In this document: piece after piece, positions 25,243 to 30,799 of the stretch | Numbering within the stretch: position 1 is the stretch's first letter | Layout: the number at the start of each line of letters is the position of its first letter | Source: a virus | IMG/VR virus record: IMGVR_UViG_3300032893_001296 | Location: 1-34,705 of that record | Reading direction: 5' to 3' (one strand) | Length of the DNA stretch: 34,705 bases | Translations under genes and position numbers: made by a program | The notes under the pieces: generated by a model | What the model was told of the DNA's origin: nothing | Database searches by the model: none | The model's input: only the letters and a program-made list of their open reading frames with translations

Positions 25243-26571
25243 TCAGTTGAGCGCGGCGGCGGAGGGGATAGTTTCAGTCGCGGGAGCGTCCAGGACGCGC
25301 AATAGAGGGGTTTGCGGCGCGGCGGTGGCCCATTTGGCGGGGATGGTCGAGACGTCGGCCGGACGGAAGCGCTTGATGAAGTAGCTGTAGTGCCGCTCGG
25401 TGACCTTGACGGTGCTGTGGCGGAGCCAGACCTGGGCTTCATAGATGCCGTAGCGCATCGCGACCTGGCTGCCGGAATAGGCGCGGAGGGCGTGGTTGGT
25501 CTTGCGGGTTTTCCAGCCGAATGCTTTGAGCCAGGCGCCAACGGCATCGAGGATCCCCTCGCAGCGGAAGGTCTTGTTCCCGGTGATGATGAAGTCGTCG
25601 GGCTGGCCGCGCCAGCCGCGGGCCTGGACTTTGGCTTGCATGGTCGAGAACCAGGGGTCGAGGGCGCGGACCTGGACCCAGCCGGTGCCGCTCTTGACGT
25701 TGGCGGTGCCGTCCAACACGGGATAGCCTTCGCGCTCAGCCCACCAGGACCAGCGCGCCTGGGAGAGCTCGCCGGCGCGGAGCCCGAACGCGAGCTCGTG
25801 GCCGATGGCCAGGAAGAGGTTCCGGTCTTCGAGGGCGGTCCAGGCCTCGAGGGTGGCGCGAATGACCTCTTCCGGGGGCGGGTTGTAGTGGTCCTTGGGC
25901 AGGCGGGTGAAGAGGTTCAGGGCGCCGACCTTCAGGAAGTCAGCGAAGGCGGGGTGGTCGACGCCGGCGGCCTGGTAGGCGGCTATGGCGCGGGGAGTGA
26001 AGAGGGAGGAGGCGTGGACGTAGCGGCTGTTGGCGCTCCGCTTGATGCTGGCCTCCGCGGTCTGGGACTGCGCGGCGGCGGCGCGGGCGGTGGCGGCGCT
26101 GAACCAGGCCCTGGCGAGGTCGCCATTGATGCGGCTGACGCTCAGGGCCCCGACGTCGGCGTCCTGGCCGGCGGCCACGCGGAGGAACTGGTGCAGGGCG
26201 TTGATGTACTGCTGGCGGCTGTCCGTGCTGGCGTCGCCAGGCGCGGTCCGGTAGACCTCGCAGAGCTGCGCGACGGTGGCGGTGGTGTCGGCGCGGTTTT
26301 TTGTGGCAGCGAGGCGCGCGTAGTCCTGGGTGACGGTGGAGTCTTTGATTTCGCGGGCTTTGGCGGCCGCGAATTTTTGGGCCTTGGCGGCGTCGTTGGT
26401 GTCGAGGCAGCGGGCATAGGACTTGCCGCGGAACTGGAAGCGGAAGTGATAGGGGCGCTCGCGGTAGCCGGGGGCATCGGGCTGCAGGATGCGGCCTTTG
26501 TCGTCGCGTTTGAAGAGGCGGTAGCCGCGGCGGGTTTTTGGTTCAGACGTTTGGACTGAATCGATGTTCAT
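25243..26571 (-). CDS. int: Tyrosine recombinase, phage integrase (442 aa)
   Basis: Integrates and excises the phage DNA by breaking and rejoining strands through a tyrosine. The N-terminal 60 residues (YHFRFQFRGKSYARCLDTND) look like an arm-binding beta domain, and about 95-215 a core-binding helical domain. The catalytic set can be read: R265 in GLRAGELSQ, K293 in NVKSGTG, H360 and R363 in TNHALRAYSGS, H385 in WLRHSTVKVT, and nucleophile Y395 in ERHYSYF. Length is normal for the family. The start ATG at 26571 overlaps the stop of the lipoprotein gene (ATGA), so both are translated together. The AGACGTCT palindrome lies at its fifth to tenth codons. A terminator follows the gene. Confidence 0.93.
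   Translation of the reverse strand: MNIDSVQTSEPKTRRGYRLFKRDDKGRILQPDAPGYRERPYHFRFQFRGKSYARCLDTNDAAKAQKFAAAKAREIKDSTVTQDYARLAATKNRADTTATVAQLCEVYRTAPGDASTDSRQQYINALHQFLRVAAGQDADVGALSVSRINGDLARAWFSAATARAAAAQSQTAEASIKRSANSRYVHASSLFTPRAIAAYQAAGVDHPAFADFLKVGALNLFTRLPKDHYNPPPEEVIRATLEAWTALEDRNLFLAIGHELAFGLRAGELSQARWSWWAEREGYPVLDGTANVKSGTGWVQVRALDPWFSTMQAKVQARGWRGQPDDFIITGNKTFRCEGILDAVGAWLKAFGWKTRKTNHALRAYSGSQVAMRYGIYEAQVWLRHSTVKVTERHYSYFIKRFRPADVSTIPAKWATAAPQTPLLRVLDAPATETIPSAAALN
26541..26560 (-). repeat. AGACGTCT-type palindromic element at the integrase start
   Basis: On the minus strand TTCAGTCCAAACGTCTGAAC, one core change from the copies at 21111 and 29978. It lies 12-31 bases inside the integrase gene, where it codes SVQTSE. 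A protein bound here could affect integrase translation or transcription, but this is speculation. Confidence 0.65.
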
Positions 26572-26840
26572 GGCGACTTGGAATTGGTGACGGCAGGTTC
26601 AGGGCCTAGAATGTCATCGACGGTTGGCTGGTTAGTACGCACTGGCCGCCAGTAAGACCATGGCGTGTCAACCATTGTCCATGCGGCATCTCCAGTGGAC
26701 TGGTCGAATCGCCAGATAACGCCGCCGTGCTCTGCCACGACGAATCGGAAGCGGAGTGGCGTGTGCGCCACTGGCGAGGCTGGGGGCGAACCAGGACTGC
26801 AGCCCACAAGAATCAAAATGAAAATGTAGGTCGGCCTCAT
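26568..26840 (-). CDS. Small lipoprotein coupled to the integrase (90 aa)
   Basis: MRPTYIFILILVGCSPGSPP is a short lipoprotein signal with lipobox LVGC, so the mature protein would begin at Cys14 and be anchored to a membrane. The mature part is about 75 residues with Trp-rich strands (GGVIWRFDQSTGDAAWTMV, PWSYWRPVRT) and ends with a charged tail. Its stop overlaps the integrase start by ATGA. Lipoproteins made from lysogeny-side operons often block receptors or DNA entry for related phages, so superinfection exclusion is a reasonable guess, but no family was recognised. Confidence 0.65.
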   Translation of the reverse strand: MRPTYIFILILVGCSPGSPPASPVAHTPLRFRFVVAEHGGVIWRFDQSTGDAAWTMVDTPWSYWRPVRTNQPTVDDILGPEPAVTNSKSP

Positions 26841-26860: not shown

Positions 26861-27103
26861 CTACCGATGCGGTTTGGTTTTGCGGTAGGTGGTGGCAACG
26901 CGCGGGGGAACGACAGTTGCAATTTGTGCTGGGGCATCGCGCAGCTCGTGGGCACTTACACCATGGGATTCCACATAGGCTAGAAGCGCTTCCCGGGCCA
27001 CATCGCTAATGCTCTTGAGGCGGGCGTCGGCAATGCGGGTGAGCGCGGCTTTCATAGTGCCCGGCACGCGAACCTTGATCTCTTCGTCCTTAAGAGTGGG
27101 CAT
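26861..27103 (-). CDS. Ribbon-helix-helix protein, Arc/CopG-like (80 aa)
   Basis: The segment IKVRVPGTMKAALTRIADAR followed by SISDVAREALLAYVESHG is a typical RHH fold: a DNA-contacting strand (K-V-R-V) and two helices, with S-D-V between them. RHH proteins bind as dimers in the major groove. The C-terminal 30 residues are an extra Thr/Pro/Arg-rich tail ending RKTKPHR. It overlaps the preceding leftward RHH gene by 14 bases. It is clearly related to the other two RHH proteins here. Probable role: repressor or co-repressor in the lysogeny region. Confidence 0.75.
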   Translation of the reverse strand: MPTLKDEEIKVRVPGTMKAALTRIADARLKSISDVAREALLAYVESHGVSAHELRDAPAQIATVVPPRVATTYRKTKPHR

Positions 27104-27266
27104 AATTGGGGCGACCGGGACGGGTGGTTTCCTTCCGGACGAAGTCGCGTAAGGCGCGCCGAACTATGTCCGACAGGTCCAACAGCTCCCGCTCGGCGAG
27201 CTGTTCCAGCGTGCTTTTCATTAGCGGAGGCACTCGGACTTTGATGTCGGCAGAGTTTCTCTGCAT
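27090..27266 (-). CDS. Ribbon-helix-helix protein, Arc/CopG-like (58 aa)
   Basis: MQRNSADIKVRVPPLMKSTL then EQLAERELLDLSDIVRRALR carries the RHH pattern K-V-R-V-P, helix, LSDIVRRAL helix. The ATG at 27266 is preferred over a TTG at 27287 because it places the strand at the same distance from the start as in the sister proteins; the TTG form would be 65 residues. The gene faces the plus-strand RHH gene across the AT-rich region, so it is well placed to control both directions. Confidence 0.75.
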   Translation of the reverse strand: MQRNSADIKVRVPPLMKSTLEQLAERELLDLSDIVRRALRDFVRKETTRPGRPNYAHS

Positions 27267-27297
27267 ACCGGGAACAATGGAGCACAACCGGCCACAG

Positions 27298-27361
27298 TGT
27301 CAATAAAATAGTTTGAAATAAGCTGTTGACATGAGTGCCCCATTGGTGCACACTCGTGCAC
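27298..27361. promoter_or_regulatory. Divergent control region with operator-like repeats
   Basis: TGTCAA at 27298-27303 and TTGACA at 27326-27331 are mirror images around a 22-base AT-rich centre that stands out from the GC-rich surroundings. Either could be a -35 box, but I find no good -10 box at the right distance. GTGCAC at 27346-27351 and again at 27356-27361 is repeated exactly ten bases apart, one helical turn, as RHH operators often are. The whole lies between divergent RHH genes. Confidence 0.55.
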
Positions 27362-27363
27362 AG

Positions 27364-27579
27364 ATGAGCACGGAAAGGCTAGAAGGCCAGGTGAAAACGA
27401 GGGTTCCGAAGCTGACGAAGGCAGCTTTGGAGCAGATTGCAACCGAGCGTCATTTGGACGTGTCAGACATCGTCCGAGAGGCCTTGAGGCAATACATAGC
27501 GCGCAATGGCTCGAAGCAGATGGAGCCGTCAGCCCTTTCAGAGAAGGTGGCGGATGCGGCCATGGGCAAGGCCGCGTAA
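27364..27579 (+). CDS. Ribbon-helix-helix protein, plus strand (71 aa)
   Basis: MSTERLEGQVKTRVPKLTKA, then ALEQIATERHLDVSDIVREA and LRQYIARNG: the RHH pattern V-K-T-R-V-P, helix, VSDIVREAL helix. It is close in sequence to both leftward RHH proteins. The ATG at 27364 is chosen over the one at 27331 because the latter lies in the operator-like region and would add 11 residues not present in the sisters. No Shine-Dalgarno is visible before either, so it may be leaderless or weakly translated. Likely the opposing regulator in the genetic switch. Confidence 0.75.
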   Translation: MSTERLEGQVKTRVPKLTKAALEQIATERHLDVSDIVREALRQYIARNGSKQMEPSALSEKVADAAMGKAA

Positions 27580-27592
27580 CCATGAAGACACC

Positions 27593-27790
27593 ATGAATGC
27601 AGACCAAATAATCAACGAGTATGTGCGGTTGGCGCCGGAGGAGCAGGTGAAGTTTGAGCAGCGATTTAAGCGGCTGCTGGGGTTTCGTCGGCGGTCGCGG
27701 CAGCTATTGAAGGAGATGCGCCGGGCTGGCGTGCCGGCTGTGCTGGGCCTGAACGGGTCAACAGGGAAGGTAAAGGCCCAGGCACGTTAG
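27593..27790 (+). CDS. Hypothetical small basic protein (65 aa)
   Basis: MNADQIINEYVRLAPEEQVK opens a helical protein that turns strongly basic (KRLLGFRRRSRQLLKEMRRA) and ends with LGLNGSTGKVKAQAR. It follows the plus-strand RHH gene by 13 bases and is probably in the same messenger. It could be a nucleic-acid-binding partner of the RHH protein. No family was recognised. A parS-like palindrome overlaps its stop codon. Confidence 0.5.
   Translation: MNADQIINEYVRLAPEEQVKFEQRFKRLLGFRRRSRQLLKEMRRAGVPAVLGLNGSTGKVKAQAR

Positions 27791-29271: not shown

Positions 29272-29290
<19 letters not shown>
29030..29290 (+). CDS. DUF6948-like phage protein (86 aa)
   Basis: MDSKLQTMGRQIVVLDRGWV followed by VGDVSKTDEVVTI, NAKNVRRWGT and KGLGELATEGP matches a small phage protein family I recall with the constant phrase DRGWV-x-VGDV ... 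RRWGT-x-x-GLGEL-x-x-GP ... VLD-x-x-GTV; I believe it is DUF6948. Its function is unknown. AAAGGAAAG gives a good binding site. It overlaps the Gly-Tyr-Gly-Asp repeat gene by 19 bases. Confidence 0.65.
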
Positions 29291-29631
<341 letters not shown>

Positions 29632-29727: not shown

Positions 29728-29994
29728 ATGAAGGCAGTCGAAATGCACTACACGCCGGCCGAGGTGGCGCTGCTGCTGCGGCTATGCACCAAGACGGTCA
29801 TCCAGAAGATGAAGTCGAAGGAGTTCGGTGAGCGCATCGCGAACGTCGGCAGCGAAGAGCGGCCGGACTACCGGATTCCGGCGGAAGGTATCAATGCCTA
29901 CCTGGAGCGGCGGAAGGTTTTTACGGAGCCGGGCGTTGCTGCCAGGACGACGGGCGAGCTGCGCCGGAAGGTCGCCTGCAGTCCAGACGTCTGA
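29728..29994 (+). CDS. Excisionase/MerR-like helix-turn-helix protein (88 aa)
   Basis: YTPAEVALLLRLCTKTVIQK followed by a basic turn, a wing (RPDYRIPAEGINAYLERRKV) and a flexible end has the layout of small winged-helix proteins used as excisionases or regulators: first helix T-P-A-E-V-A, recognition helix after it, and RIPAEGINAYLE as the typical close. It stands at the head of the replication region, far from the integrase, so an early regulator is as likely as an Xis. The stop TGA lies inside the AGACGTCT palindrome. Confidence 0.6.
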   Translation: MKAVEMHYTPAEVALLLRLCTKTVIQKMKSKEFGERIANVGSEERPDYRIPAEGINAYLERRKVFTEPGVAARTTGELRRKVACSPDV

Positions 29995-30002: not shown

Positions 30003-30026
30003 GATTTTATTCCAGATTTTATTCCA
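30003..30026 (+). repeat. Exact tandem 12-mer touching a start codon
   Basis: GATTTTATTCCA at 30003-30014 is repeated exactly at 30015-30026, and the last A of the second copy is the A of the ATG start. It is AT-rich in a GC-rich region and replaces any Shine-Dalgarno. It may be an operator, a promoter duplication or a recent slip duplication. Confidence 0.8.
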
Positions 30027-30799
30027 TGGCGCGGAAGACCAAGAAGGAAATGTTGGCCCGGGCGCAAGACCCGGCGGCGCCGTATCTTTTCGACGAGGAG
30101 GACCTGCCAGTGCGTAACGACCTGGTGCAGGCCGTGCGCGAGCAGCGATACCAGCACACCGGTGCGCGACTGCTGGACAACGAGAAGATGGTGCTGCGCC
30201 TGGTCGAGCTGCTGATGGCGCGCTGGGGGCTGCGGAAGATTGCGCGGACCTTGCACGTCTCGAAGCATTCGGTGAAGGCGGCGCGGGACGCGCTGGTCGC
30301 CCAGGGCAAACTGGCACCCTTCAAGGAACGAGTGGTGGCGGTATTCGAGGAGATTGTCGAGGTCGGCGCCTCGAGCTACCTGCGCGACCTGGAGGATGGG
30401 CTGGTGGCTCCGGCCCAGAAACCCGTTGGGGCGGCGATATTCTGGGACAAAAGGGCCCTGGCCATGGGCGAACCGACGACCATCGGCGTGGCCGGCCAGG
30501 TGCAGCTCGACCAGAAGTCGCTGTCGGTGGAGGCGCTGAATGCCTGGCGGGAAAGCCTGCCGGCTGATTTACCATTAAGCGGTTCACCCACGAAACCCAA
30601 GAAAATCGAGGCGTTGTCGAGCGCTGAACCAAGTTCTGAGCGGCCGGACCGGGCTGGACCTGGTGCTGGAGAGCCGACCGGGCCGGCGGCCGGAGCGGGG
30701 TCGGAGGGTGACGGTCAGGTAGCGGCAGGGGGCCCGGGGGGGGGATCGGCGGCCTCGGCGGCCCTACCAGGGCCGACTAATTCGGGTTCCGGGACATAG
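30026..30799 (+). CDS. HTH protein of the early region (257 aa)
   Basis: MARKTKKEMLARAQDPAAPY begins a basic N-terminus. About 55-95 holds a clear helix-turn-helix: LVELLMARWGLRKIARTLHV then SKHSVKAARDALVAQGKL, a form seen in small phage DNA-binding proteins and in small terminase-like HTH domains. The middle has a short helix and strand part. The last 80 residues are a disordered Pro/Gly/Ser/Ala tail. The ATG at 30026 is chosen because the longer frame upstream crosses the HTH gene's end. No binding site is visible; a tandem 12-mer lies there instead. Confidence 0.55.
   Translation: MARKTKKEMLARAQDPAAPYLFDEEDLPVRNDLVQAVREQRYQHTGARLLDNEKMVLRLVELLMARWGLRKIARTLHVSKHSVKAARDALVAQGKLAPFKERVVAVFEEIVEVGASSYLRDLEDGLVAPAQKPVGAAIFWDKRALAMGEPTTIGVAGQVQLDQKSLSVEALNAWRESLPADLPLSGSPTKPKKIEALSSAEPSSERPDRAGPGAGEPTGPAAGAGSEGDGQVAAGGPGGGSAASAALPGPTNSGSGT

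Follow-up and report, generated by a model that had tools for sequence, protein, structure and literature searches.

We propose that the lysis-lysogeny control of a temperate Verrucomicrobiota phage is probably exerted by two opposing sets of ribbon-helix-helix (RHH) repressors, proteins of the Arc/Mnt type which would play the parts of CI and Cro. The phage is represented by a 34,705-base IMG/VR virus record, IMGVR_UViG_3300032893_001296, classed as linear; the whole record is called here the window. Three RHH genes lie beside its integrase, two leftward (L1 and L2) and one rightward (R), as shown in Table 1. The genes, their paralogy and layout, their recurrence in other viruses and the shared, conserved operators can all be read directly in the DNA.

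Table 1. Location of the features of the window discussed in the text. Operators are predicted.
Feature	Position	Strand	Remarks
Tyrosine integrase	25243..26571	-	PHROG integrase, E 7e-11; homologues 44-52% identical
Small exported (lipoprotein-like) protein	26568..26840	-	Between L genes and integrase; similar exported ORFs in the same place in G008, G013 and G097, read by eye
L1, RHH protein, 80 aa	26861..27103	-	Second gene of putative integrase-ward transcript; RHH_1, E 0.0016
L2, RHH protein, 58 aa from ATG 27266	27090..27266	-	First gene of putative integrase-ward transcript; RHH_1, E 1.1e-4
Left operator (predicted)	27271..27300		About three tandem 10-bp repeats; 23-bp core 27275-27297
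-35 box TTGACA, leftward promoter	27298..27303	-	
-35 box TTGACA, rightward promoter	27326..27331	+	
Right operator (predicted)	27336..27375		Tandem 10-bp repeats GTGCACACTC GTGCACAGAT GAGCACGGAA between -35 box and R start codon; 23-bp core 27341-27363
R, RHH protein, 71 aa from ATG 27364	27364..27579	+	First gene of putative rightward transcript; RHH_1, E 3.5e-6
HTH_17 protein, excisionase-like	29728..29994	+	Rightward early region; HTH_17, E 6e-7; same place in relatives
HTH_23-like early-region protein	30026..30799	+	Kept in relatives; HTH_23, E 0.018; alignment

The original prediction described three small paralogous RHH proteins, found next to the integrase where a CI/Cro pair would be expected, with two overlapping leftward genes and one rightward gene. 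Our results agree with this description. All three ORFs are in place, the genes for L1 and L2 overlap by 14 nt, and the common pattern K-x-R-V-P ... SD-[IV]-x-R-x-AL is exact in every protein. Profile matches and fold place them in the RHH (MetJ/Arc/CopG) superfamily: R (27.2 bits) and L2 (22.5 bits) exceed the Pfam RHH_1 cut-off of 20.5 bits, and L1 (18.8 bits) is just under it, by 1.7 bits. Arc/CopG-like repressors are among the top PHROGs matches for the three proteins. When R is used as a query against the record, it finds L2 (42% identity, E 2.6e-10) and L1 (42%, E 5.1e-8), with no other match. Both RHH helices are present in the AlphaFold model of R. The matches of this model in the PDB are RHH proteins (ORF56, CopA-SO, CopG, Arc and antitoxins), with a best probability of 0.99 and E-values which are all above 0.03 because the RHH domain is tiny; the model is 16-24% identical to Arc over the aligned part. 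The best NCBIfam match of L1, L2 and R is ORF56, a weak one (35.1 bits for R, the cut-off being 50). The three proteins are too short to contain a CI-type cleavage domain.

The L and R genes face each other across back-to-back promoters, as had been suggested, with two outward TTGACA boxes in the -35 position. Outward TTGAC pairs separated by 18-50 bp are present in 8/8 of the intergenic regions first tested, compared with 0-1.5% in shuffled sequences. The -10 boxes are weak, and a promoter scan does not call them. The ORF of R is open as far as ATG 27331, previously taken as its start. This has to be corrected: a start there would fall in R's own -35 box, and homologues begin at an ATG matching 27364, which is also the start indicated by the placement of the operator. 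The L2 ORF is open to TTG 27287, its most likely start being ATG 27266.

Each promoter has one predicted operator. The left core, CAATGGAGCACAACCGGCCACAG, and the right core, CATTGGTGCACACTCGTGCACAG, are identical in 17 of 23 positions. The same feature is found in a related prophage (G138), with 20-bp copies on both sides which are 85% alike. When ten promoter arms from five viruses are compared, 23 of the 45 pairs have p <= 0.05, and about two would be expected. Of all positions in the record, the two sites of the window take the first and second ranks with a matrix built from three other viruses, and with held-out matrices the best site falls inside the intergenic region in G087, G138 and G011 as well (4/4 viruses with the window); these ranks are not fully independent, the training sites having been picked after viewing the alignments. 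A 10-bp period is clear in eight arms of four viruses: 65 matches are found against 36.7 +/- 4.1, a number reached at no lag in 500 shuffles. Such a period is what would be expected of RHH half-sites in a row, one helical turn apart. It is weak in the pooled loci of G008, G004, G013, G014, G097, G082 and G127. The right arm is 66-81% identical among the window, G087 and G011, compared with 33-39% for the third codon positions of R, and therefore it appears to be under selection. The original prediction placed the regulatory DNA at 27298-27361. This interval was too narrow, the extent predicted now being about 27271-27375. Divergent promoters, predicted operators common to both and an adjoining integrase, the layout expected of a lysis-lysogeny switch, are found together in this region.

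Arrays of RHH genes next to an integrase are not confined to the window. Relatives were found with the capsid, the integrase or an RHH profile as bait: the capsid protein fetched relatives first, integrases were then identified and an integrase alignment was built. IMG/VR gave no match when it was scanned with R, L2 or the integrase singly, and in a phage collection neither R (best E 0.4) nor the integrase nor the DNA of the region has a relative. We infer that the host is a Verrucomicrobiota bacterium, because a MAG contig titled Verrucomicrobia subdivision 3 (G014) has a related integrase, 52% identical, and the same early genes.

The layout of the window, with one RHH gene outward and two adjacent genes toward the integrase, is repeated in the prophage G138, carried by a genome of the same order, and the integrase of G138 abuts tRNA-Pro. 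Divergent pairs with a single gene on each side are found in G011, G008, G082 and G087. The order in G008 is integrase, exported protein and leftward RHH gene, followed by rightward RHH gene, excisionase-like HTH_17 protein and HTH_23-like protein; G011 has the same order, with L1-like and R-like RHH genes. An RHH-profile search of 320 genomes of the order of G138, in which the integrase was not a bait, ranked G138 first and also returned G087 and G082, each with a divergent RHH pair and then a Pfam-confirmed phage integrase. One RHH ORF of G087 is apparently truncated or frame-shifted. Weaker cases are G014, where one member of the divergent pair is a weak RHH_1 match, G127, with a further multi-RHH divergent locus, and G013 and G097. 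The last two have the layout of the window, and the RHH identity of their pairs is suggested by their position, by the pattern and by a fold match, a weak one, to the RHH domain of NikR; an independent profile gave no proof of it. A single RHH-like ORF in G031 was discarded as a firm case, as it matched no RHH family. Some relatives differ: G002 and G003 have an integrase in common with the window and no RHH pair was found beside it, and in G004/G012 only R is kept, facing an unrelated small ORF.

Several other features of these loci may be mentioned. The G127 locus (L072, 474-2119), beside the end of an integrase-like ORF, contains at least three, perhaps five, RHH-like ORFs, one of which faces two others. 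A small basic protein with the pattern A-x-x-LGR-x-GG-x-x-K ... NG-x-LGGRPRK is encoded directly before the integrase in relatives without an RHH pair (L024:1487-1681, L023:2149-2289). Three relatives have a tRNA-Met(CAT) gene downstream of R (L021:7871-7945, L028:4789-4863, L035:1995-2069), which adjoins a small Cys-rich zinc-ribbon-like ORF; the window has no tRNA gene. Between R and the integrase of G004 (L022:10620-12100) there are small genes, each behind a near-identical promoter-like repeat of about 150 bp; two ORFs in the same stretch contain segments weakly resembling NikA/RHH. In the G138 prophage (L050:5600-6079), a RelE-like ORF with its own upstream partner, read by eye, lies between the RHH trio and the integrase. 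In the window (26568-26840) and at L021:6871-7158, L049:2680-2991 and L033:2168-2521, the L RHH gene is followed by a gene for a small exported protein, which in most cases precedes the integrase. These proteins loosely share the pattern R-F-x-I ... K-L-D-T-x-T-G-x-x-W, and are possible superinfection-exclusion or lysogenic-conversion genes. An ORF in the early region of the window (29272-29631) consists almost wholly of GYGYGD-type repeats (a hexanucleotide-like tract), and G011 has a similar low-complexity tract (L028:1821-2123).

The RHH set does not appear to have been formed in this phage. In a 43-column core, the R proteins of the window, G011 and G138 are mutually 42-53% identical and the L1 proteins 49-53% identical across viruses, compared with 40-49% among the window's own L1, L2 and R. 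The core of R in the window is 51-53% identical to those of G138_R and G011_R, and that of L1 is 51-53% identical to those of G138_L1 and G011_L; G138 also has a counterpart of L2. When the three proteins of the window are forced into one clade, the tree is 17 lnL worse (p-AU 0.048), and a tree with R, L2 and L1 as separate clades is not rejected; support values are low because the RHH domain is short. A recent duplication private to the window's phage has been discarded on these grounds, R grouping with R and L1 with L1. The idea of a switch made by duplication within this phage is not supported: the paralogue lineages appear to predate the phages that were compared. They are best regarded as ancient paralogues, each tied to its position, L2 having been lost or gained in certain lineages. 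R/L heterodimers would be possible, since the paralogues share most core residues.

These data suggest the following mechanism. Two back-to-back promoters would fire outward. The leftward (lysogeny) transcript would include L2, L1, the small exported protein and the integrase, and the rightward (lytic) transcript would include R, followed by the excisionase-like protein and replication genes. At each promoter, 10-bp half-sites in tandem would form an operator in the interval from the -35 box to the start codon, and RHH dimers of the L and R sets would recognize the same kind of half-site. In a lysogen, L1/L2 would keep the rightward promoter off; after infection or induction, R would shut the leftward promoter, as CI and Cro do. 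The roles of the transcripts and the mutual repression are suggested by analogy with phage logic. Which protein binds which site, the sign of each effect, the role in lysogeny and any heterodimer we infer from the arrangement of genes and operators.

A secondary immunity region beside an unrecognized repressor is the main remaining alternative, although we consider it unlikely. Like immI of P22, it would tune an antirepressor or a side function, the main repressor being located elsewhere. The HTH_23-like protein, which is kept in the rightward early region of relatives, is a possible candidate for an alternative regulator. The record is also incomplete: the longest relatives exceed the window by about 10 kb, a part of the phage that may be missing here and could contain a repressor gene. 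There is a precedent in P22, where c2 is the repressor and the RHH pair of immI, Mnt and Arc, operates alongside it (PMC7549136, PMC8022706). On the other hand, the array lies between the integrase and the early genes, a location unlike that of immI in the late region of P22, and no antirepressor domain is found in the ORFs neighbouring the array. A CI-like gene elsewhere would have spoken against an RHH-only switch, as the original prediction pointed out: no CI/Cro-type HTH_3 protein is found in the main ORFs of the window, nor in two relatives of about 44.5 kb each (G008 and G004).

The original prediction also named toxin partners as a test. RHH is a common antitoxin fold, and several of the best structure matches are antitoxins (VapB26, CopA-SO, ParD); NCBIfam gives weak RelB matches, far under the cut-off. 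The RHH genes might be type II antitoxins which stabilize the prophage and also autoregulate their promoters. We have rejected this explanation as improbable: neither Pfam nor NCBIfam gives a toxin-family match for the ORF following R (27593-27790) or for the one following L1 (26568-26840), the downstream ORFs vary among relatives while the RHH pair stays, and a toxin-antitoxin module would leave two facing RHH genes and a shared operator unexplained. More improbable still is plasmid-like copy control or partition (CopG, ORF56 or ParG type), or control of integration and excision only: the plasmid copy-control protein ORF56 is the best weak NCBIfam match of the three proteins and the RHH genes border the integrase, but no ParA or Rep partner is recognized next to them, the virus encodes an SU10-type major capsid protein, a holin, an integrase and an excisionase-like protein, and a switch is indicated by the divergence of the early transcript from that of the integrase.

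An RHH switch may be extended, with about even confidence, from the window to a lineage of Verrucomicrobiota temperate phages. Their primary decision would be left wholly to RHH paralogues, with a single R opposed by one or two L proteins, the same 10-bp tandem half-sites and no CI/Cro-type protein, and the outcome would be decided by competition, perhaps with R/L heterodimers. If this is true, an RHH-versus-RHH switch kept in diverged viruses would be a case of the same logic achieved with a different DNA-binding fold, and it would offer a first approach to the way in which lysogeny is controlled in Verrucomicrobiota phages. The homologous sides and common half-sites make competition and heterodimer control testable with three proteins of 80 aa or less and about 110 bp of DNA. 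Such switches may be missed in prophage surveys, because an RHH gene next to an integrase is readily labelled a CopG-family antitoxin.

Studied bacterial phage switches mostly oppose HTH repressors. The region resembles lambda-type CI/Cro and P2-type C/Cox in having divergent promoters beside the integrase, shared operators and opposing repressors, but those are HTH proteins, and no HTH_3 protein has been found in the main ORFs here. Plasmid copy-control proteins of the ORF56/CopG type have the same fold and include the best NCBIfam match, but the proteins of the window are under the curated cut-off and have no plasmid replication context. The literature we have searched contains no RHH-only divergent switch in a bacterial phage, and papers beyond that search may exist.

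The closest precedents are Mnt/Arc of P22 immI and F55 of the archaeal virus SSV1. In P22, mnt and arc are divergently transcribed from adjacent promoters. Mnt and Arc are two short homologous RHH repressors, about 40% alike, the former acting in lysogeny and the latter in lytic growth (PMC7549136). They control ant, in the late region, beside the main c2/Cro switch (PMC8022706). The window also has divergent RHH repressor genes, but its array is located between the integrase and the early genes and includes a second L gene, and neither ant nor a c2-like gene is found in the neighbouring and main ORFs of this incomplete record. F55 of SSV1, a fusellovirus, is an RHH protein; it binds to tandem repeats, both in early promoters and in its own promoter, and thereby maintains the provirus in a silent state (PMC5569661). 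SSV1 differs in having one protein and archaeal promoters, with no facing RHH partner described in that paper. The likeness, an RHH protein with tandem-repeat operators, is a functional one.
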